Notes under the pieces: model-generated
Databases searched by the model: none
The model's input: only the letters and a program-made list of their open reading frames with translations
Told to the model about the DNA's origin: nothing
NCBI GenBank assembly: GCA_011050235.1
Contig: DRGC01000096.1
Span: 1 to 60,257 of the forward strand
Length of the DNA stretch: 60,257 nucleotides
Origin: Phycisphaerae bacterium
GTDB taxonomy: Bacteria; Planctomycetota; Phycisphaerae; SM23-33
Reading direction: 5' to 3'
Program-made: the position numbers and the translations under genes
Shown: in pieces, positions 20,258 through 46,362 of the stretch
Layout of the letters: every line of letters starts with the position of its first letter
Numbering within the stretch: position 1 is the first letter of the stretch

Positions 20258-20316
20258 TAGTCCGTAACACGTAATTTGGTGGATGGCACCCGTCATTTGG
20301 CTGTTACAGACCACTG

Positions 20317-20634
20317 AGCGGTCTTACATACGTTTGTAGCGGTTGTGGTAGGAGGTGGGGATGTCGTGGTCTTACCATGTTGCCCCCACCTGAGTCCGGC
20401 CTATCAGAGCCCGACCATCGCGACCGGCCGATACCTCATGTGCTGAGGTATGCTTCCGCTGGACCGAGAACCCCTTTCCCGAGACCGGCAAGCACGCCCC
20501 CGCCCGCGGAGCCGTCGCATTGGACAGTGACCATTCAGCATTCAGCACCTGCCTGCCGGCAGGCAGGTTCGGCATTTGGCATTGGGATGCCCCCAGCCGG
20601 CTGTTGCCGGGAAACGGACTGATGTAAGACCGCT
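20317..20634. repeat. possible MITE-like element with 13-bp terminal inverted repeats
   Basis: AGCGGTCTTACAT at 20317-20329 is repeated as its exact reverse complement at 20622-20634, bounding 318 bp of non-coding DNA. Inside are a 22-bp perfect palindrome and AT/GC patchwork sequence. No target-site duplication is obvious at the ends and no transposase is present. A non-autonomous element is the simplest reading; a chance inverted repeat cannot be excluded without finding further copies. Confidence 0.45.
20547..20568. repeat. 22-bp perfect palindrome
   Basis: ACCTGCCTGCC is followed directly by its reverse complement, with no loop. Its right part, GCAGGCAGGTTCGGC at 20559-20573, recurs with one mismatch at 56365-56379 in front of bamA. 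Confidence 0.75.
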
Positions 20635-20650
20635 TAGGGCGAGGGGGCGA

Positions 20651-36352: not shown

Positions 36353-36409
36353 GATCCGTCTCCTGTCCCAAACGAATGCCCATGGTCACGTTCGCCCAGA
36401 CACGTTGTC

Positions 36410-36418
36410 ACTATAGCA
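36410..36418 (-). promoter_or_regulatory. extended -10 promoter element upstream of rubrerythrin
   Basis: On the minus strand TGCTATAGT matches the extended -10 pattern TGnTATAAT except for one base. No strong -35 is seen. The predicted leader to the rubrerythrin start is about 50 nt. Confidence 0.4.
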
Positions 36419-36464
36419 CTTTGCCCCGCCCGTCCCGAACGAATCTGAAATGCACAGACGGACG

Positions 36465-37448
36465 TCAGTCCGCGTAGCCGTCGGGGTGGCCGTTGTGCCA
36501 CGCCCAGGCGTGTTCGATGATCGTGCTCAGCTCGGCCCGTTTCGGCCGCCAGCCCAGCCCGTCCATCGCCCGCTGCGACGAGGCGATCAGTCGCGGCGGG
36601 TCGCCCGGGCGGCGCGGCCCAACCTCGGCCGGAATCTTGCTGCCGGTCACCTGGCGGGCCGTCTCGATCACCTGCCGGACGCTGAAGCCCGCCCCGTTAC
36701 CGAGATTGTAGGCGTCGGCGCAGCCCCGCCCGATGCGCTCAGCCGCCAGCACGTGGGCATCGGCCAGGTCGCACACGTGGATGTAGTCGCGCACGCACGT
36801 GCCGTCATCGGTCTCGTAGTCGTCGCCGAAGATGCTCATCTGCTCGTGCTTGCCCATCGCGACCTGCAGCACCAGCGGGATCAGGTGTGTCTCGGGGCGG
36901 TGGTCCTCGCCGATATCGCCCGCCGGGTCGGCCCCGGCGACGTTGAAATATCGCAGCGAAATGAACCCCATCTTGTAGGCCTGCGCGTACGCCCGCAGCA
37001 TCCACTCCACGCACAGCTTGCTGGCCCCGTAGGGGTTGATCGGATCGAGGCGGTCGTCTTCGTCGATCGGCATCCGCTCAGGCTGGCCGTAAACCGCCGC
37101 CGTCGACGAAAACACCATCCGACCCACGCCCGCCTCGCGCATCGCATCCAGCAGCATCAGGCCGATCAGTGTGTTGTTGCGGAAATACTTGTCGGGCTCG
37201 GCGACCGACTCGGCCGCCTCGATAAAGGCCGCCAGGTGGATCACCGTGTCGATGGCGTGGTCGCTCATCGCCGCCCGCATCGCGCGGCCGTCAGCGACAT
37301 CGGCGACGACCAGCTCGGCCTCGCTGACGGCTGTGGCGTGACCCTTGCAGAGGTTGTCGACCACCACACACCGATGGCCCGCCTCCGCCAGCGCACGCGT
37401 GACGTGCGATCCGATGTAGCCCGCCCCGCCTGTCAGAAGAACGTTCAT
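36465..37448 (-). CDS. galE: UDP-glucose 4-epimerase
   Basis: A 327-residue short-chain dehydrogenase-type epimerase. The NAD loop is MNVLLTGGAGYIGSHVTRAL. The catalytic pair is Y and K in NPYGASKLCVEWM, preceded by VFSSTAAVYG. The C-terminus has RPGDPPRLIASSQRAMDGLGW, which fits GalE closely. It interconverts UDP-glucose and UDP-galactose for surface polysaccharides or galactose use. It is divergent from the first of three large paralogues, with 68 bp between the starts. A fragment of its 5-prime end is duplicated at 41251-41276. Confidence 0.92.
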   Translation of the reverse strand: MNVLLTGGAGYIGSHVTRALAEAGHRCVVVDNLCKGHATAVSEAELVVADVADGRAMRAAMSDHAIDTVIHLAAFIEAAESVAEPDKYFRNNTLIGLMLLDAMREAGVGRMVFSSTAAVYGQPERMPIDEDDRLDPINPYGASKLCVEWMLRAYAQAYKMGFISLRYFNVAGADPAGDIGEDHRPETHLIPLVLQVAMGKHEQMSIFGDDYETDDGTCVRDYIHVCDLADAHVLAAERIGRGCADAYNLGNGAGFSVRQVIETARQVTGSKIPAEVGPRRPGDPPRLIASSQRAMDGLGWRPKRAELSTIIEHAWAWHNGHPDGYAD

Positions 37449-37488
37449 CCGCCGGCGATTATACGCCAGGCCAAAGCCGTTGCAATCG

Positions 37489-37502
37489 CCCCGTCGGCGG
37501 GG
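37489..37502. promoter_or_regulatory. short hairpin in the galE / paralogue 1 divergent region
   Basis: CCCCG, a four-base loop TCGG, then CGGGG. It lies 14 bp before the start of paralogue 1 and is repeated before paralogue 3. It may affect translation of the downstream gene or just be part of the duplicated segment. Confidence 0.4.
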
Positions 37503-37516
37503 ACAATGCACAGACC

Positions 37517-39115
37517 ATGGGCGACAACACCAACGCAGGGCCTCCCCAGCCTCTCCAGCAGCCCCGCCGCTGGCTGACGGGCAAGCGGCTGTTGTGGATG
37601 GGGCTGTTGATCGTGCTCGTCTTGCTGGCCGCAGCCGCCTATTGGCCGGTGGATTACAGCCTGAAAGTCTCCCCGGAGACCACCTACCTCACCGGCCCGC
37701 TGCGAGAGGATGGGACGGTCGATTACGTCGAAGCACTTCGCCGGCTCGGGGTCGACCACATCGCCACCGACGAAAACGCCGTCCGGCTGTTCGCTCAGGC
37801 CTTTGGGCCAAGCTTGTGGTTACCTGAAACGCTCGACGATGCGCTGGCGGAACTGGGCCTGCCACCTCTGCCGGCCGGCGGCGATTACTTTGTCCGTTTC
37901 CAGAAGTTCGTGAAGACCTTGCCGGCCGATCAGCAGGAGTTCGTCGCCGCCGCCGACGTCCTGGCTGCAGCGATAAAGACCCCCTGGTCGGCCGACCAGT
38001 ATCCGCGCATTGCCCAATGGCTGGCCGACATCGATGAGCCGTTGGCTCTGATTGTTCAGGGCGCCGAGCGTCCGCACTTTTGTCTCCCCGTCGTTCCTCA
38101 CGAAGCGACGACTCTACTTGATGTGCTGCTGTCCCCTCACCTGGCCTCTCTTCGCGATGCCGACAGGGCGCTTACGGCCCGCGCGATGCTGCGGGCGGGC
38201 CGGGGCGACCTCGACGGCGCCCGATCTGACCTGCTGGCCTGCCATCGCATGGGGCGGCTTGTCGGGCGACACTGGACCGTCCTCAGCTATATGGCCGGCA
38301 TTGGTATCGAAAGGAGGGCCTATGACGCCCATCTCGCTTTGGTGAAAACCGGCCGCCTCTCGCGCGAACAGACAGCGGTGATGCTGGCCGACCTGCAGGC
38401 CCGGCCGCCTGTACGCTCCTTTGCTGACCACCTTGAGCAGGGCGAACGTTTACTCATCTTGGACCAGATTCAACAGATGCTCAGGGGCGAAACGTCGGAG
38501 CTCGGGGACCTGAATATCATCGGTCACAGGAACGTCAACTTGAACATCGCCCTGCGCATGGCCAACGAGTGCTGGGGGGGGATGATCGCGGCGATGGGCA
38601 AGGCCGACTACGGCGAGTACTGTCTGGCCTATGATCAGTGGGGGCGTGATGCCGAGAAATGGTTCACCGGCGAGGAGGTGCCCGATCGGGATGAGTCGAT
38701 CGACTATGCGCTCTACCGGGCAAAGTTCATCGCATTGAGCCTGAGCGGCAATCTCGGCCGCCCCACACTGTCACGGATTGTCGGTACCAAGGCGATACAG
38801 TACAGCATACCATCGATGAGTCATATTCGCGCTCTTGAAGAGCGCTTTCGCACGTGGGATGAGTTGACGAAGCTTGCCCTGGCGCTGTCGCTGCATAAGC
38901 ACGACCACGGCCAATATCCCGACGATCTGGCCGCGCTGGCGGGGGATTATCTGCCGGCCGTGTTCAAGGACCGTTTCACGGGCGACCCGCTGCACTACCA
39001 GCGGCAGGGGCAGGGGTACCTGCTCTACAGCGTCGGATGGGACCAAATCGACGACGGCGGCCTCAACGCCGACGGCGAGCCGGCAGAGGATGACCTTGCC
39101 ATTCAAATCAAATGA
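37517..39115 (+). CDS. membrane-anchored paralogue 1 with pseudopilin-like C-terminus
   Basis: A 532-residue protein. A short cytoplasmic N-terminus (MGDNTNAGPPQPLQQPRRW) is followed by one membrane helix (residues ~25-44, LLWMGLLIVLVLLAAAAYW), so most of the protein lies outside the cytoplasm. After a conserved SPETTYLTGPLREDGTVDYVEAL comes a long helical region of unknown fold. The last ~80 residues (LTKLALALSLHKHDHGQYPDDL, then DPLHYQRQGQGYLLYSVG and DDGGLNADGE) strongly resemble the C-terminal part of GspG-type pseudopilins, including an acidic, possibly calcium-binding loop. No prepilin peptidase site is present. The function is unknown. Two paralogues follow downstream. Confidence 0.75.
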   Translation: MGDNTNAGPPQPLQQPRRWLTGKRLLWMGLLIVLVLLAAAAYWPVDYSLKVSPETTYLTGPLREDGTVDYVEALRRLGVDHIATDENAVRLFAQAFGPSLWLPETLDDALAELGLPPLPAGGDYFVRFQKFVKTLPADQQEFVAAADVLAAAIKTPWSADQYPRIAQWLADIDEPLALIVQGAERPHFCLPVVPHEATTLLDVLLSPHLASLRDADRALTARAMLRAGRGDLDGARSDLLACHRMGRLVGRHWTVLSYMAGIGIERRAYDAHLALVKTGRLSREQTAVMLADLQARPPVRSFADHLEQGERLLILDQIQQMLRGETSELGDLNIIGHRNVNLNIALRMANECWGGMIAAMGKADYGEYCLAYDQWGRDAEKWFTGEEVPDRDESIDYALYRAKFIALSLSGNLGRPTLSRIVGTKAIQYSIPSMSHIRALEERFRTWDELTKLALALSLHKHDHGQYPDDLAALAGDYLPAVFKDRFTGDPLHYQRQGQGYLLYSVGWDQIDDGGLNADGEPAEDDLAIQIK

Positions 39116-40853
39116 TCCGACTTTGCCGGATGGGCCCGCCCCCGAGTTGCCGGCCGATCACCCTCGGGCCAGGAAGCGCAAGCGTCGGCGCAGAGCACTT
39201 CTGCTGCTGATTGCCCTGATCGTCTATTTGCTCTACGCCTACTGGGCGGATGAATACGGCATCACGGTTTCGCCGGAGACGACATATCTCACCGGCCCGT
39301 TGCGACCTGACGGCACCGTCGATTATTTTCGGGCACTGCAGGAGCGACTCAGTGAGGGCATCACGCCCGAGAACAACGCTGCGCCGCTCCTGCTGAGGGC
39401 GTTCGGCCCGAGGGGTGTTCCCGAAGATGCTCGCGACGACATCCTGGCACAACTCGGCTTGCCGAGTTTGCCGGAAGATGGAAGGTACTTCACTAACTTG
39501 TGGGATTATGCCGACTCGCTGCCGTCGGCGGAACGGGCCGCCTTACTGGGCGGGTCCAGTGTGATCGACGAGTATGATTGGCTGGTGGTGAAAGCGAGGG
39601 GTGGCCCCTGGTCGGCCGAGCGGCATCCGCTGCTCGCCCGTTGGCTGGCGGCCAACGATCTGGCCCTGGCCCTGGTCGTTCAAGCCTCGCAGCGCCCTCA
39701 CTCCCGTTTCCCGCTGATCGAATCCAAGCAGTCGCCTTGGCGGACGGGACTGTCTTTCAGTACGGTCCACGGCAAACTTCACGACGCGGTCCGGGCGCTG
39801 ACCGCGCGGGCACAACTGAGACTGAGCGGCGATGATTGGCGGGGCGCGCTGCAGGATGTGCTGGCCTGTCACCGCCTGGCGCGTGTGTTGGCCCAAGAGG
39901 GGTTGCTTGAGGTGGTGACCGCAACTGCCCTCGAAGCTCTGGTGTGCCAGACCGACATCGGTATGGTCACAAGCGGCCGGCTGTCGCCGGATGAGTTACG
40001 CGCACTTCTTTTTGAACTGCAACAACTGCGGCCAATGAGGCGTCCGGCGGACGCCTTGATGGCAACCAGCAGACTGGCCGGGCTGGCGTTTACCACGGCG
40101 TTGGCCCGCGGCTACGATATCGACGCGTTCTTTCCCCAACCTGTAATGAGCGCTAACGGTGAGTTCGACGTTGTCTTCTCGCCCAGTCACCAAGGGGACG
40201 TGCGATATCCACTGCAGTGGGATGTGATCCTGCGGATGCAGAACGAGCACTACAATCGCCTCATAAAGGCCATGAACTTGGCGCGTTTCTCAGACTCCCT
40301 GGCGGCCTGTGAGCAGATCGAACAGGAAGTCGCCCCCGAAGAACAGGCGCCCACAGGCCTGTTCCGGATGCTGTCGGAACTGATCAATTGGCTGAACTCG
40401 TTGCGCGGTGTGAGTGCCTCTCCCGCGCCCGGCAAGACCGGGCTGGGCAAGGACATCGAACGCTTCAAGGCGGCGGCCCGACTGTCGCGATGGGGCGGGC
40501 GGCCCCTCCGAGGCTACGCATCGCGACAGGCTGGCCGGGTGCTGTTGCGCATGGCCGGCGTCCAGGGAAGCGGGAGACTACGAGCCCTGCATGAGTGGGC
40601 GGCGATGTACGGTGAATTGACGAGATTGGCGATCGCCCTGGAGTTGTACAAGCATGACGAGGGCCAATATCCCGACCGCCTGGCCGCGGTGGCGCTGACA
40701 TACGTGAAAGCCGTCCCCTTGGACCGGTTCGTGGACAAGCCCCTTGAATATCGTCGCGTCGGAAAGGGCTACTTGCTCTACAGCGTCGGGCTGAACCAAA
40801 TCGACGATGGCGGCATCAACGCCGACGATGACATCGTCGTCCAGGTCAAGTAA
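39090..40853 (+). CDS. membrane-anchored paralogue 2 with pseudopilin-like C-terminus
   Basis: A 587-residue, more diverged member of the same family. A basic N-terminus (RARKRKRRRRALLLLIALIV) leads into one membrane helix. It is followed by the shared ITVSPETTYLTGPLRPDGTV, and at the C-terminus by ELTRLAIALELYKHDEGQYP, PLEYRRVGKGYLLYSVGLNQ and DDGGINADDDIV. The start ATG at 39090 lies inside the end of paralogue 1 (26-bp overlap, different frame), with AGAGG directly before it; the frame continues further upstream without support. The close overlap indicates one transcript with paralogue 1. No enzyme motif was recognised. Confidence 0.72.
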   Translation: MTLPFKSNDPTLPDGPAPELPADHPRARKRKRRRRALLLLIALIVYLLYAYWADEYGITVSPETTYLTGPLRPDGTVDYFRALQERLSEGITPENNAAPLLLRAFGPRGVPEDARDDILAQLGLPSLPEDGRYFTNLWDYADSLPSAERAALLGGSSVIDEYDWLVVKARGGPWSAERHPLLARWLAANDLALALVVQASQRPHSRFPLIESKQSPWRTGLSFSTVHGKLHDAVRALTARAQLRLSGDDWRGALQDVLACHRLARVLAQEGLLEVVTATALEALVCQTDIGMVTSGRLSPDELRALLFELQQLRPMRRPADALMATSRLAGLAFTTALARGYDIDAFFPQPVMSANGEFDVVFSPSHQGDVRYPLQWDVILRMQNEHYNRLIKAMNLARFSDSLAACEQIEQEVAPEEQAPTGLFRMLSELINWLNSLRGVSASPAPGKTGLGKDIERFKAAARLSRWGGRPLRGYASRQAGRVLLRMAGVQGSGRLRALHEWAAMYGELTRLAIALELYKHDEGQYPDRLAAVALTYVKAVPLDRFVDKPLEYRRVGKGYLLYSVGLNQIDDGGINADDDIVVQVK

Positions 40854-41250
40854 GCGATCTTACGTAAGTCCGTAGGGATCGAGCCGTCAGCTAAGGCCCA
40901 AAGGGCCGTCTTGCATAGCCCAGGGCGAAGTCGTGAGCGTGAGCGCAGCGAGCAGTCGAACGGCGAGCCCTGGGGAATGTATCGGCCAATGGAAAAGCCC
41001 CAACGGGGCGCCTTGACGATGGTCTCAATCGCATGGCCGACAAAGCCAAGACACCCCTGCGGGGCTTGCTGCAATGCCGACGATAACCCAGGGCTTGGCC
41101 TGACGGCCTACGCCCTGGGCTACACAAGGGACCCCGCTGGGGCCCAACGAATCAACAAGGCCGCCCAAGAGATGTCGCACAGGTCGCAGATCCGCCGGGG
41201 CGGGTCGCACGCCCGCCGGGCTGAGGGCCCGCCAAGCCCTGCAAACTTAA
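40854..41250. repeat. gene-free, palindrome-rich repeat region
   Basis: About 400 bp without a credible gene between paralogues 2 and 3. It holds a series of short hairpins: GCCCC-AAC-GGGGC at 40997-41009, CCCC-TGC-GGGG at 41054-41064, CCCC-GCT-GGGG at 41132-41142, and a longer one, CCCAGGGC (41087-41094) against GCCCTGGG (41112-41119). Such spacing of small GC hairpins around CCAACGGGGC- and GCCCTGGGC-type motifs recalls dispersed non-coding repeats seen in planctomycete-like genomes. Whether it is present elsewhere in this genome is not known. Confidence 0.55.
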
Positions 41251-41276
41251 CCCGCCCCGCCTGTCAGAACGTTCAT
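41251..41276 (-). pseudogene. remnant of the galE start codon region
   Basis: These 26 bp read ATG AAC GTT CTG ACA GGC GGG GCG on the minus strand, the same as the first codons of galE at 37448 except for one missing CTT codon. The homology continues across the intergenic sequence up to the start of paralogue 3, matching 37420-37516. Only this stub of galE was copied, so it is a footprint of the duplication that produced paralogue 3. Confidence 0.75.
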
Positions 41277-41344
41277 CTGCCCGCGATCGTGCGCCAGGGC
41301 AAAGGCGTTGCAATCGCCCCGTCGGCGGGGACAATGCACAGACC

Positions 41345-42934
41345 ATGAGTGACGACACCAACGCGGGGCCTCCCCAGCCGACCGAACAGCCCCATCGCTG
41401 GCTGACGGGCAAGCGGTTGTTGTGGATGGGGCTGTTGATCGTGCTGGTCTTGCTGGCCGCGGCAGCCTATTGGCCGGTGGATTACAGCGTGAAAGTCTCC
41501 CCGGAGACCACCTACCTCACCGGCCCGCTGCGAGAGGATGGGACGGTCGATTACGTCGAAGCGCTTCGCCGGCTCGGGGCCGACCATATCGCCACCGACG
41601 AAAACTCCGTCCGGCTATTCGCTCAGGCCTTTGGGCCTGACTGGTGGGTGCCTCACGTCCTGCACGACGCGCTGACGGAGTTGGGCCTGTCGCCTCTGCC
41701 GGCTGGCGGCGATTACTTTGTCAGTTTCCGGAAGTTCGTGAAAACCTTGCCGGCCGATCAGCAGAAGCTCGTCGATACCGACGGCAATGAGTTGGATACC
41801 TATGAGTTTCTGGCCATGGCGAGGAAAACGCCCTGGTCGGCGGACCAGTATCCGCGCATTGCCCGATGGCTGGCCGACATCGATGGGTCGTTGGCTCTGA
41901 TTGCTCAGGGCGCCGAGCGCCCGCACTTTTGCCTCCCAATTGTTCCCCGCGACGCTGAAGGCCTGTATGCGGTACTGCTTCCCCACGTGGGCCGCCTTCG
42001 CGACGCCACCAAGGCGCTTGGAGCCCGCGCGATGCTGCGGTCGGCCCGGGGCGACATCGACGGCGCCCGGGCCGACCTGCTGGCCTGCCATCGCATGGGG
42101 CGGCTTGTCGGGCGACACTGGTCTCTCATCAGTTGTTTGGTCGGCATTGCCAGCGACTCGATAGCCTATGGCGGGGATCTAGCTTTGCTGAAAACCGGCC
42201 GTCTCTCGCGCCAACAGACAGCGGCGATCCTGGTCCACCTGCAGGCCTTGCCGCCCGTGAGGCCCGTCGCAGACAGTTTCCAGCAGAGCGAACGTCTCTT
42301 TGTCTTGGATGCCATTCAAGAACTGGCCGGGAGCACAGCTTCGGAGCGTGCGGAGTTTGCGGAGTTTACGGAACAGCACGCTATCGATCGCAGAAACATT
42401 AACTGGAACATCCCTCTCCGCATGGTCAACGAGTACTTTGGGGGCTTGATCGCGGCGATGAGCAAGGCTGACTACAGCGAGTACCGTTCGGCCTATCAGC
42501 AGTGGGAGCATGACACTGAGAAATTGCTCGCCGACAAGGGCATGCCTGATTCGGATGAATCGAGCGGCAATCTCGGCCGTCCCGAGCTGTCACGGATTGC
42601 CGGTGTTGCGGTGATACAGTACTTCATACCATCGCTGTATCGCGCTCGCGACTTGGAAGAGCGCTTGCGCATGCGGGATGAGTTGACGAAGCTCGCCCTG
42701 GCGTTGTCGTTGTATAAACATGACCACGGCCAATATCCTGACGATCTGGCCGCTCTGGCCGGGGACTATCTCCCGGCCGTGTTCAAGGATCGTTTCACGG
42801 GCGACCCGCTGCACTACCAGCGGCAGGGGCAGGGGTACCTGCTCTACAGCGTCGGGCGGAACCAAACCGACGACGGCGGCCTCGACGCCGACGGCGAGCC
42901 GGCAGAGGATGACCTTGTCGTTCACATCAAGTAG
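41345..42934 (+). CDS. membrane-anchored paralogue 3 with pseudopilin-like C-terminus
   Basis: A 529-residue near-copy of paralogue 1. The first ~115 residues (including the membrane helix and SPETTYLTGPLREDGTVDYV) and the last ~90 (DELTKLALALSLYKHDHGQYP to DDGGLDADGEPAED) are almost identical to those of paralogue 1, while the middle differs at many positions. This mosaic points to duplication followed by divergence or partial gene conversion. The upstream segment is also a copy, including the hairpin and the stub of galE. The role is unknown; the C-terminal pseudopilin-like domain suggests an extracytoplasmic binding function. Confidence 0.75.
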   Translation: MSDDTNAGPPQPTEQPHRWLTGKRLLWMGLLIVLVLLAAAAYWPVDYSVKVSPETTYLTGPLREDGTVDYVEALRRLGADHIATDENSVRLFAQAFGPDWWVPHVLHDALTELGLSPLPAGGDYFVSFRKFVKTLPADQQKLVDTDGNELDTYEFLAMARKTPWSADQYPRIARWLADIDGSLALIAQGAERPHFCLPIVPRDAEGLYAVLLPHVGRLRDATKALGARAMLRSARGDIDGARADLLACHRMGRLVGRHWSLISCLVGIASDSIAYGGDLALLKTGRLSRQQTAAILVHLQALPPVRPVADSFQQSERLFVLDAIQELAGSTASERAEFAEFTEQHAIDRRNINWNIPLRMVNEYFGGLIAAMSKADYSEYRSAYQQWEHDTEKLLADKGMPDSDESSGNLGRPELSRIAGVAVIQYFIPSLYRARDLEERLRMRDELTKLALALSLYKHDHGQYPDDLAALAGDYLPAVFKDRFTGDPLHYQRQGQGYLLYSVGRNQTDDGGLDADGEPAEDDLVVHIK

Positions 42935-43116
42935 CGGGGGTGAGCGTGTCGAGATAGAATAGTGGACGCTGGCAGGGCGTTTGGCCGGCGGATTTGTACA
43001 ACGTGTGTCACGGATGAACGTAATTGGCACGGGCGATTTTCTGGAATCGCTCGGGCCTGATGCTGCGCGCGCTGAACGCGATACAAAAGACCCAATGTTG
43101 AGATGACGACAGAGCC

Positions 43117-46100
43117 GTGTTTGAACGGGTATTGAACAATCCGCAGCTTCGCCAGGCCGTCGAGCGGTTGGCGCCGGGGGGGATGGTGCAGTTGGCCGGC
43201 GTGTGGGGGTCGTCGTCGGCGCTGCTGTCGGCGGCGGTGGGGCGGCTGGCCGATGCGCCGGTGTTGTTTGTGGCAAGGCACCTCGATGACGCCGACGAGC
43301 TGGCCGACGACGTTGAGATCATCTCGGGCCAGGTGGCGGGTCTCTTCCCGGCCTGGGAGACCGATGTCGCCGCCGACCACATCAGCGACGAGGTCGCCAC
43401 CGAGCGAGCGGGCATCTGCAACCTGCTGGCTCACCCGCCGGCCGGCCAGGAGCCGTTGCGGTTCGTCGTCGCGCCGGTGATGGCGCTGCTCCAGCCCGTC
43501 CCCTCGCCCGACGCCCTGGCCGCCGGGCGGCTGACGGTCGAGATCGGCGGCGAACTGGGTGTGGACGGCCTGGCCGAGTGGCTGGTGACGGCCGGCTACG
43601 AACCGGTCGATCAGGTCGACCAGCAGGGCGAGTTCGCCCGCCGCGGCGGGATCGTCGACGTCTTCCCGCCCGGGGCGCAGCAGGCTGTTCGCGTGGAGTT
43701 TTTCGGCGATTCCGTCGAGTCGATCCGCCACTTCGACCTGGACACGGCCCGCTCCAGCGACCAGATCGACGCGGTGGACCTGGCCAGCCTGTCGGTCGGC
43801 CGCGACGTCACCGGGGCCGGGAGCCTGCTGGATTACCTCCCGCCGGAGACCGTCATCTGCATCCACGAGCCGGCCGATGTCACCGAGCTGGCGATGCAGC
43901 TTTACGATCGGGCCGGGCCGACCTCCGAGGCGGCGATCGAGGTGGCGAGCGTGCCGTTGGCCGAGCCGGGCGCGATGTTCGAGGCGCTCAAGCGTTTCCG
44001 TTGCGTCACGATGCACAGCTTCCGCCCCAAGAGCGACCCCGGCGCGCTGAACCTGGGCATTCGATCGCTGGAGCGCCTGTCGACCAACATGCCCGAGGCG
44101 TTCGCCGAGCTGGACAAGCTGACGACCGTCGCCGACGTGTGGGTCTACTGCGAGAACCCCGCCGAGCAGAAGCGGTTCATCCAACTGCTCGGCGAGTACG
44201 GGGTCTCCGGTCACGGCCGAATGCGCACGGCCATCGGCCACCTGCGGAGCGGCTTCCACTGGCCCGACGAAGAGCTGGTCGTCGTCGGCCACCACGAGAT
44301 CTTCCACCGCTACGCCCACCGGCGCCGCGTTCGGCGCGTCCGCCCGGGCCGGCCGATCGAATCGCTGTCGGACCTGCACCACGGCGACCTGGTGGTGCAC
44401 GTGGCGCATGGCATCGCGAGGTTTGCGGGGCTGCGGATCCTCGAACGCGAGGGCGGCAAGGAGGAGTTTGTCACGCTGCGGTTCGCCGACAAAGCCCTCC
44501 TGCACGTCCCGGCCAGCCAGATCGACCTCGTGCAGAAATACATCGGCGCGCGCGGCCAGAGGCCCTCGCTGAGCACGCTGGGCGGCAAGGGGTGGCAGAA
44601 GCAGAAGGACCGCGTCAGCGAGGCCGTCAGGGACCTCGCCGCCGATATGCTCCGCACCCAGGCGATGCGCCAGGGGACCAAGGGCACGAGCTACCCGGTC
44701 GCGACCGAGTGGCAGCGGCAGTTCGGCGAGGAGTTCATCTACGCTGAGACCGAAGATCAGATTCGGACGATGGAGGATATCGATGCCGATATGGTCGCCG
44801 GGCGGCCCATGGACCGGCTGATCTGTGGCGACGTGGGGTTCGGCAAGACCGAGCTGGCGATGCGGGCGGCGTTCAAGACCGTCGAGGCCGGCCACCAGGC
44901 GGCGGTGCTCGTGCCGACGACGGTCCTGGCGGACCAGCACGCCCGCACCTTCACCGAGCGGTTCGCCGACTACCCAGTCGAGGTCGACGTGCTCAGCCGG
45001 TTCCGGACGGCCAAGGAGCAGGCCGACATCATCCGGCGAGCGGCCGAGGGGCGCATCGACATCCTGATCGGCACGCATCGGCTGCTCAGCGGCGACGTGC
45101 GGTTCGCCAGCCTCGGGCTGGTCGTCATCGACGAGGAGCAACGGTTCGGCGTCGAGCACAAGGAGCATCTCAAGCAGATGCGGGCGACCGTCGACGTGCT
45201 GACGATGACGGCGACGCCCATTCCGCGGACGCTGCACATGGCGCTGCTGGGCCTGCGGGATATCAGTTCGCTGGCGACCCCGCCGCTCGACCGCCGGGCG
45301 ATCCGCACCGAAGTCTGCGCGCACGACGAGGGCCTGATCCGCATGGCCATCCTTCGCGAGCTTAACCGCGACGGGCAGGTGTTTTTCGTGCACAACCGCG
45401 TGATGGATATCGAGTCGGTCGCCGACGACATCCGCGCCCTCGTACCCGAGGCCCGCGTGACCGCCGCCCACGGCCAGATGCACGAGCACGAACTGGAGGA
45501 GGCCATGCTGGCCTTTGTCCGCCGCGATGTGGACGTGCTGGTCTGCACGACCATCATCGAGTCGGGGTTGGATATCCCCACAGCCAACACGATGATCATC
45601 CAGGAGGCCGACCGGTTCGGCCTCAGCCAGCTGCACCAGCTTCGCGGGCGGGTGGGCCGCTATCGACACCGGGCGTTCTGCTACCTGCTGCTGCCGCGGC
45701 GGCGGACGCTGTCGTCGGTGGCGGCCAAGCGCCTCAAGGCGATCGAGGAGTTCTCCGACCTGGGGGCGGGGTTCCAGATCGCCATGCGCGACCTGGAGAT
45801 CCGCGGGGCGGGCAACATTCTCGGCCGCGAGCAGAGCGGCCACATCGCCATCGTCGGCTACGAGTTGTACTGCCAACTTCTGGAGCAGTCGGTCCGCGCC
45901 CTGCAGGGCAAGGAGCCCATCGTGCGCTGCGACGTGCACGTGGAGCTCGGCGTGGAGGCCTACATTCCGCGGCCCTACGTGGTATCGGATCGTCAGCGGA
46001 TGGAGCTCTACCGCCGGCTGGCCCGCTGCGCGGATGTCGACGACGTGGATCAACTGCGAGACGACCTGGCCGATGCATTTGGGGCGCCCCCGCCAGAGGT

Positions 46101-46362
46101 GCAGACGCTGCTGGATGTGGCCGAGATCCGCGTGCTGGCGGCGGCGGCCGGCATCGAGAGCATCATTCGCCAGGGCCCGGACCTGGTCTTCACCGTTGGC
46201 GATTTCAGGACGGCCGAGCCCGTCTTCAGTGGGGCCGTCGGGACGGTTCGCCTGCCCGACGACCACACCGCCCACTGGCGCCTGCCGCCCGCCTGCCTCG
46301 AGATGCCCACGCTGCTCAGCGTCCTGCGAAAGCGGTTGAGGCAGGGCGTCCAGACGGTATAA
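43117..46362 (+). CDS. mfd: transcription-repair coupling factor Mfd
   Basis: A 1081-residue protein that removes stalled RNA polymerase and recruits UvrA. In order: a UvrB-like N-terminal region with QQGEFARRGGIVDVFPPG, the RNA polymerase interaction domain with GDLVVHVAHGIARFAG, and the helicase core with Walker A GDVGFGKTELAMRAAF, the DEEQ box VVIDEEQRFGVEHKE, TATPIPRTLHMALLG, VHNRV, and the RecG-like TTIIESGLDIPTANT with QLRGRVGRYRHRAFCYLL. A C-terminal domain follows. Slightly shorter than the E. coli protein (~1148). Start is GTG 43117. A 182-bp gap with no clear promoter precedes it. Confidence 0.95.
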   Translation: MFERVLNNPQLRQAVERLAPGGMVQLAGVWGSSSALLSAAVGRLADAPVLFVARHLDDADELADDVEIISGQVAGLFPAWETDVAADHISDEVATERAGICNLLAHPPAGQEPLRFVVAPVMALLQPVPSPDALAAGRLTVEIGGELGVDGLAEWLVTAGYEPVDQVDQQGEFARRGGIVDVFPPGAQQAVRVEFFGDSVESIRHFDLDTARSSDQIDAVDLASLSVGRDVTGAGSLLDYLPPETVICIHEPADVTELAMQLYDRAGPTSEAAIEVASVPLAEPGAMFEALKRFRCVTMHSFRPKSDPGALNLGIRSLERLSTNMPEAFAELDKLTTVADVWVYCENPAEQKRFIQLLGEYGVSGHGRMRTAIGHLRSGFHWPDEELVVVGHHEIFHRYAHRRRVRRVRPGRPIESLSDLHHGDLVVHVAHGIARFAGLRILEREGGKEEFVTLRFADKALLHVPASQIDLVQKYIGARGQRPSLSTLGGKGWQKQKDRVSEAVRDLAADMLRTQAMRQGTKGTSYPVATEWQRQFGEEFIYAETEDQIRTMEDIDADMVAGRPMDRLICGDVGFGKTELAMRAAFKTVEAGHQAAVLVPTTVLADQHARTFTERFADYPVEVDVLSRFRTAKEQADIIRRAAEGRIDILIGTHRLLSGDVRFASLGLVVIDEEQRFGVEHKEHLKQMRATVDVLTMTATPIPRTLHMALLGLRDISSLATPPLDRRAIRTEVCAHDEGLIRMAILRELNRDGQVFFVHNRVMDIESVADDIRALVPEARVTAAHGQMHEHELEEAMLAFVRRDVDVLVCTTIIESGLDIPTANTMIIQEADRFGLSQLHQLRGRVGRYRHRAFCYLLLPRRRTLSSVAAKRLKAIEEFSDLGAGFQIAMRDLEIRGAGNILGREQSGHIAIVGYELYCQLLEQSVRALQGKEPIVRCDVHVELGVEAYIPRPYVVSDRQRMELYRRLARCADVDDVDQLRDDLADAFGAPPPEVQTLLDVAEIRVLAAAAGIESIIRQGPDLVFTVGDFRTAEPVFSGAVGTVRLPDDHTAHWRLPPACLEMPTLLSVLRKRLRQGVQTV

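Follow-up and report, generated by a model that had tools for sequence, protein, structure and literature searches.

A galE footprint, a dispersed MITE-like element and mosaic paralogues point to segmental duplication with gene conversion in a Phycisphaerae bacterium

We analysed a 60,257-nucleotide stretch of DNA from a Phycisphaerae bacterium (GenBank contig DRGC01000096.1, here C96; the whole stretch is called the window), in which the interval between galE and mfd holds three paralogous genes, a repeat and a displaced fragment of galE. The assembly of this genome (G000) is a draft of 4.01 Mb in 98 contigs. On the left lies the footprint donor galE, encoding UDP-glucose 4-epimerase (36465-37448, minus strand; NCBIfam TIGR01179, E = 1.8e-129), and on the right mfd (43117-46362, plus strand). 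Between them, all on the plus strand unless stated, follow paralogue 1 (P1, 37517-39115, 532 aa), paralogue 2 (P2, 39090-40853, 587 aa), which is an older duplicate with 39% identity to P1, and a hairpin-rich element resembling a miniature inverted-repeat transposable element (MITE), assigned to its family A (40851-41250, start approximate), with a left inverted repeat at 40851-40877 and a truncated right end. A remnant of the galE start (41251-41276, minus strand), a copied intergenic region (41277-41344) and paralogue 3 (P3, 41345-42934, 529 aa) complete the interval. P2 and the repeat thus sit between P1 and P3, as an earlier sequence-only reading of this DNA had described. The first 26 nt of P2 (39090-39115) overlap the 3' end of P1, which corrects an earlier P2 start and suggests translational coupling, and the TAA stop codon of P2 forms the first three bases of the element.

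The same reading held that the DNA upstream of P3 was copied from the galE/P1 intergenic region together with the first galE codons, and that the copied block began within galE. Both claims are borne out by the alignment of 41251-41344 with 37420-37516, which contains a single 3-nt gap corresponding to one galE codon and runs on into P3; an ungapped comparison of 37438-37737 with 41266-41565 gives 92% identity over 300 nt. What remains of galE at this place, with one codon deleted, covers codons 1-9 plus two bases from codon 10. At the junction (41250/41251, no strand), the right end of the element (..GCAAACTTAA) meets galE at the two initial bases of its codon 10 (CCCGCCCCGCC.. on the plus strand). 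Alignment with complete copies of the element places this junction within the right inverted repeat: complete copies end in approximately CAAACGCTACAGACTTATGGTAGACCG, and the window copy, like a second one on contig C62, reads CAAGCCCTGCAAACTTAA and then continues into galE. The duplicated block therefore spanned from inside galE to just within the right end of the element. The copy in the galE-mfd interval is tandem, as the sequence-only reading proposed, but that description is incomplete, since the same junction recurs in a second copy located near rpsB/groES; likewise, the repeat it had placed between the paralogues is present, but as a dispersed MITE-like element that makes the other side of the junction.

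A genome search identified the gene of this second copy, a fourth close paralogue (P4) on C62 with 73% protein identity to P1 and, by codon alignment, 88% identity to P3. The hairpin repeat has its best match elsewhere in the genome (85%) directly upstream of P4, and in the alignment this copy shares the junction (..GCAAACTTAA joined to CCCGCCCCGCCTGTC..), lacks the galE codon that is missing upstream of P3 and carries the intergenic region as well. Over 1630 columns of repeat, junction, footprint and paralogue, the window and C62 sequences are ~90% identical. The unit of element, galE remnant, predicted promoter and P gene is present twice, with different flanks: on C62 it is bordered on one side by what we take, judging by the translations, to be rpsB-tsf and on the other, beyond one more open frame, by groES-groEL. 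The C62 unit starts exactly at the left terminus of its element. Beside P4 stands a further left inverted repeat, cut after ~31 bp and oriented directly with respect to the element on the upstream side of the gene. Both P2 and P4 have an element end directly at their stop codons. Judged by eye, the last ~25 nt of P4 are closer to P2 than to P1. The window and C62 elements have in common an internal deletion and an extra segment, which are absent from three complete copies aligned with them.

Related genomes indicate the ancestral arrangement. A genome of the same family (G031) holds one P match, located between galE (68% identity) and mfd (51% identity) in the order and orientation of the window; because this relative has a single P there, the interval appears to have expanded in the window lineage. 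P also stands directly before mfd in three further loci (L050, L052 and L059; L-numbers denote loci compared), and the order galE-P-mfd is known from one genome and P-mfd from four. In none of the remaining loci among the 63 compared, whose flanks extended to at most 1.5 kb in 28 and up to 6 kb in 33, was galE or mfd found at E <= 1e-8. Homologues of P were detected at E <= 1e-10 in 27 of 60 genomes (own included), and in the tree, whose bootstrap had not settled, P1, P3 and P4 group together (100/100) and P2 joins them next (92/85). Another tandem pair of P homologues occurs elsewhere in the same genome (L040, G000:C49, 3741-6917), and tandem pairs were also seen at L099 and L106.

The footprint also carries a predicted promoter region. 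A consensus scan assigned to galE the site TTGCAA-16 nt-TATAAT (37458-37485, minus strand; 10/12), which is the sole promoter-like site that the scan found in 36400-43200; shuffled sequences average 1.1, so this prediction is weak alone. By eye, a P1-directed half, TTGCAA-16-GACAAT (37480-37516, plus strand), scores 8/12, below the scan threshold. TTGCAA reads identically on both strands and may act as a shared -35 element of a divergent galE/P promoter (37446-37516). The 68-bp galE/P1 intergenic region matches that of G031 (L044) with a local score of 28 against a maximum of 17 in 2000 shuffles. In the P3 and P4 copies the galE half differs from the original at 7 of 31 positions and its -10 box has decayed from ATTATA to ATCGTG (plus strand), and the P half differs at 0 of 37 positions in the P3 copy (Fisher p = 0.0027) and at 2 of 37 in the P4 copy. 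On the best reading, the galE codons travelled as passengers with the predicted P promoter, and the 94 bp beside galE would have been kept for the paralogue's probable promoter within them.

We propose that P expanded between galE and mfd, that a block was duplicated in tandem on C96, that the resulting unit was copied to the rpsB locus and that gene conversion followed, a history that we consider probable, if by no means certain. A single envelope-protein gene, P, would have expanded in this lineage, with P2 arising first and the MITE-like element then inserting at the P2 stop codon. The block that starts within galE (37420), includes P1 and P2 and stops a little short of the element's right end would next have duplicated, fusing element, galE remnant and P. 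The second P2 (P2') was probably lost through recombination of P1' with P2' at their similar 3' ends, leaving a P1-type gene with a P2-like tail; such a tandem duplication of P1, P2 and element with later P2 loss is suggested because the P2-like tail of P4 and the direct-oriented element end beside it fit. The unit of element, galE remnant, promoter and P would then have been copied upstream of rpsB to give P4, most simply through recombination between dispersed elements, and P1, P3 and P4 would later have swapped sequence by gene conversion while their central helical solenoid diverged. The same observations on C62 could be read in the opposite direction, with the unit formed first at the rpsB locus by capture of galE-P1 DNA beside an existing element and later copied into the galE-mfd interval. 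Both elements have the junction, and the C62 unit, with its start exactly at an element terminus, has a truncated element end behind it, as if elements had been there beforehand. This order, however, requires galE DNA to be copied first to an ectopic site; a tandem event on C96 would use local sequence only, and the P4 tail with the element end next to it resembles, by eye, the boundary of P2 and element on C96. We regard an origin at rpsB as rather unlikely.

Later exchange between the copies is recorded in the genes themselves. P1 and P3 had been described as near-identical at both ends and divergent in the middle, and indeed identity is ~92% at both ends and drops to 60% in the lowest 50-codon window; by segment, nucleotide identity is 92.6% for codons 1-95, 83.0% for 96-200, 78.5% for 201-300, 69.5% for 301-400, 76.3% for 401-460 and 91.8% from 461 to the end. 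Along these six segments pN/pS between P1 and P3 is 0.27, 0.46, 0.88, 0.59, 1.03 and 0.20. A maximum-chi2 permutation test was applied to sites at which P1 or P4 differs from the other two genes. Up to codon 359, P3 agrees with P4 at 138 sites and with P1 at 35, and after it at 39 and 53 (p = 0.00005); at fourfold sites the corresponding counts are 23 versus 5 and 2 versus 11 (p = 0.00045). P1, P3 and P4 are mosaics by this comparison, and the switch of nearest relative near alignment codon column 359 (approximately 38552-38554 in P1, plus strand, and ~42416 in P3, both hand-derived) supports gene conversion. The sequence-only reading had offered conversion or selection on the central part as the cause, and both find support, the first in the topology switch and the second in pN/pS of 0.46-1.0 in the centre against 0.2-0.3 at the ends. 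When a single break is allowed, variability at fourfold sites shows no significant change along the gene (p = 0.17, one-break test). That null result and the pN/pS profile would also suit a single duplication without conversion, in which the ends are under strong purifying selection and the middle is relaxed or diversifying. Constraint, however, cannot switch the nearest neighbour of P3 from P4 to P1, and the switch is significant at fourfold sites alone; we consider this account quite unlikely. Conversion and weak constraint of the centre, rather, act together.

What the divergent centre encodes is suggested by an AlphaFold model of P1 (mean pLDDT 85.2, pTM 0.84, 21 sequences), which comprises an N-terminal helix (residues 18-42) that is probably a membrane anchor, a helical solenoid of ~390 residues and a C-terminal domain from ~436. 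Residues 436-530 match the major pseudopilin 3gn9 with Z 8.0 and an rmsd of 2.0 over 85 residues at 24% identity, and other GspG/PulG chains follow (1t92, Z 7.6; 3g20, 7.4; 5o2y, 6.4); Z values below 8 may reflect a common arrangement, but these matches concern one compact domain at 22-24% identity. A profile match to GspG (2kep) is weak (E = 0.0025). The C-terminal domain of P1 thus has a fold like that of the major pseudopilins GspG/PulG (PDB 3gn9, 1t92), and the likeness is confined to this globular domain: unlike in those proteins, where the prepilin signal directly precedes it, the domain of P1 is C-terminal, behind the intervening solenoid, and the N-terminal pseudopilin arrangement is absent. 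No known family reaches its Pfam or NCBIfam cut-off in P1-P3; of 21 P family members scanned, two match DUF1559 and one T2SSG at E <= 0.01. A Foldseek search of P1 against the PDB returned nothing at E <= 0.001, and VIA-align matches to the solenoid, chiefly helical repeats, designed ones among them, with Z of at most 8.9, lie in a range that is uninformative for such folds. We infer from the model that P is an envelope protein whose anchor and C-terminal domain are conserved and whose helical surface varies.

The hairpin repeat is a MITE-like dispersed element. The genome contains at least 16 matches of at least 300 bp, including the window copy, plus shorter pieces (40 of 85 candidates scored); our alignment joins the window copy to 16 others, one of them partial. 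Complete copies are bounded by inverted repeats of ~27 bp, TAAGCGGTCTNNNNTAAGTCNGTAGCG and its complement, and such ends occur 17 times in the genome at no more than three mismatches (reversed-pattern control, 0). Complete copies with paired inverted ends fall into two families that have common ends and little interior in common: family A (L083, L084 and L086; 399-438 bp) and family B (295-322 bp), represented by L085 and by a 322-bp copy in the window, outside the duplicated unit (20315-20636, plus strand). The window copy within the unit has lost its own right end. Partial family-B copies were seen at L087 and L094, and CTAAGCGGTC is the end sequence of the element family. By eye, five complete copies have C-TA..TA-G borders, with TG in place of the left TA at 20315-20316 in the window, consistent with an apparent TA target duplication or with a TA that is part of a symmetric terminus. 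All five have G next after the element, and 46 of 54 distinct ends, from this genome and relatives, have C before them. The ends were found in 6 of 60 genomes (own included; control pattern, 0) and in 6 of 298 (own included; one control match, in G234) when more genomes were scanned with a stricter pattern; in some copies in relatives they lie 103-104 or 226-227 bp apart.

Twelve terminator-like sites were counted in 36400-43200, against a shuffle mean of 4.5 (sd 2.4), one lying within the hairpin repeat (41009-40997, minus strand) and another spanning the junction (41271-41253, minus strand). As a structured RNA the repeat was rejected: the window has no Rfam match at gathering level, and two-sided compensatory change occurs in 1 of 74 predicted pairs over 16 copies.

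The passages of PMC3189936 compared describe the bacterial element MITEPsy1 as 100 bp long and duplicating 4 nt (CTAG or YTAA), with a derivation from ISPsy2 suggested by its authors. The present element resembles such MITEs in being short and dispersed, with inverted-repeat ends and a CTAG-type target; it differs from MITEPsy1 as there described in its length, which is 295-438 bp in this genome and 103-227 bp in relatives, as well as in its inverted repeats and its apparent TA duplication within CTAG. A TA target with CTAG preference is also the pattern of IS630/Tc1-mariner elements, as given for ISY100 in PMC2170065, whose reference list includes Tenzen and Ohtsubo 1991 on TA in 5'-CTAG-3'. 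Unlike that group, the element has no accompanying DDE_3 (PF13358) match in its draft genome; neither PF13358 nor PF01609, the two transposase profiles searched, was found there, and no candidate parent transposon emerged from this search. The parent may be lost or unassembled. The 4-Mb draft nevertheless holds 16 long element copies. The element family was not recognised in the published passages compared, which include parts of PMC3189936, PMC3119063 and PMC2170065, nor was a description of it or of its stop-codon docking recognised in the literature listed on MITEs, CTAG targets, planctomycetes and overlapping stop codons.

An element family with inverted-repeat ends and a TA target, together with the exact terminus at the left boundary on C62, raises the idea that the whole unit transposed as a composite mobile element. 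The second end, beside P4, is nevertheless direct, with its outer side towards P4, and leaves the unit without inverted bracketing; with the two transposase profiles also unmatched, composite transposition is highly improbable. An assembly chimera, for which a 98-contig draft with dispersed repeats offers some opening, is, like chance, very unlikely, because two contigs that differ in their flanks share the junction and footprint and because P1, P3 and P4 are too diverged, differing at 12-19% of nucleotides with reading frames intact.

Several results sit less comfortably with the history of tandem duplication, copying to rpsB and conversion. The longest run of identity between P1 and P3 is not significant (p = 0.20 at all sites, 0.07 at fourfold sites), nor, as stated, is the one-break test, and an excess of fourfold differences in codons 301-460 (13/26 versus 37/172, p = 0.0034) was chosen post hoc. 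The promoter asymmetry reaches only p = 0.069 for P4. The P3+P4 sister pair is weakly supported (90/63), as expected because the genes are mosaics. A second P2 or a relic of one was not seen, a same-genus genome is absent from the 60 searched, leaving the order of events without intermediates, and the failure to find PF13358 or PF01609 transposases belongs here too.

The positions at which the element has settled are the least expected part of the case. We tallied 54 distinct ends at no more than three mismatches in a frame-controlled comparison, omitting exact repeats and any end lying no more than 400 nt from the start of its locus. An open frame of at least 150 codons reaches the element end in 24 of the 54 and none does in 30; in 18 of these 24, the first triplet of the element is the stop codon of the longest such frame, the other two frames accounting for 1 and 5 (binomial p = 3.6e-5 against one third). 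These 18 include the ends at P2 and P4, which are mutually non-independent, and the right end at L083, 26 nt before which a longer frame already stops. Long frames reach both element ends at L085 (188 and 410 codons), L142 (366 and 257) and L159 (432 and 500); at L085 1501-1795, L142 1301-1527 and L159, both ends are the stops of long convergent open frames. CTAG itself is ~nine-fold under-represented in the window 1-60257 (23 sites against 198 expected from base composition), with 5 sites at stops, 15 in coding sequence and 3 intergenic by crude gene calls. Insertion into the TA of CTAG would yield a stop because TA and the first A of the element make TAA, and TAAGCGG ends would restore TAA on either side, which would account for landing in stop codons and even in both stops of convergent pairs. 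Docking may thus reflect insertion into the TA of CTAG combined with loss of harmful insertions. It is possible, and we offer the idea tentatively, that a MITE family of this planctomycete class, without a description in the literature listed, inserts at the TA of CTAG, often exactly in stop codons and at times in both stops of a convergent pair, and that docking at gene 3' ends makes it a harmless recombination handle, able to fuse with neighbouring DNA and spread units of promoter and gene such as that of element, galE remnant and P.

Segmental duplication with gene conversion between paralogues is a textbook process, and the copied flanking DNA and mosaic paralogues of this locus conform to it; unlike the textbook case, a dispersed repeat makes the junction here, and the genome has a second unit at another place. 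As a segmental duplication with recombination the case is well resolved and of an ordinary kind, and it provides a readable example of how a bacterial gene family grows, showing where the block broke, which repeat it was fused to and how the copies later recombined. Element ends that double as stop codons would offer a simple, testable account of how a repeat persists in a gene-dense, CTAG-poor genome.

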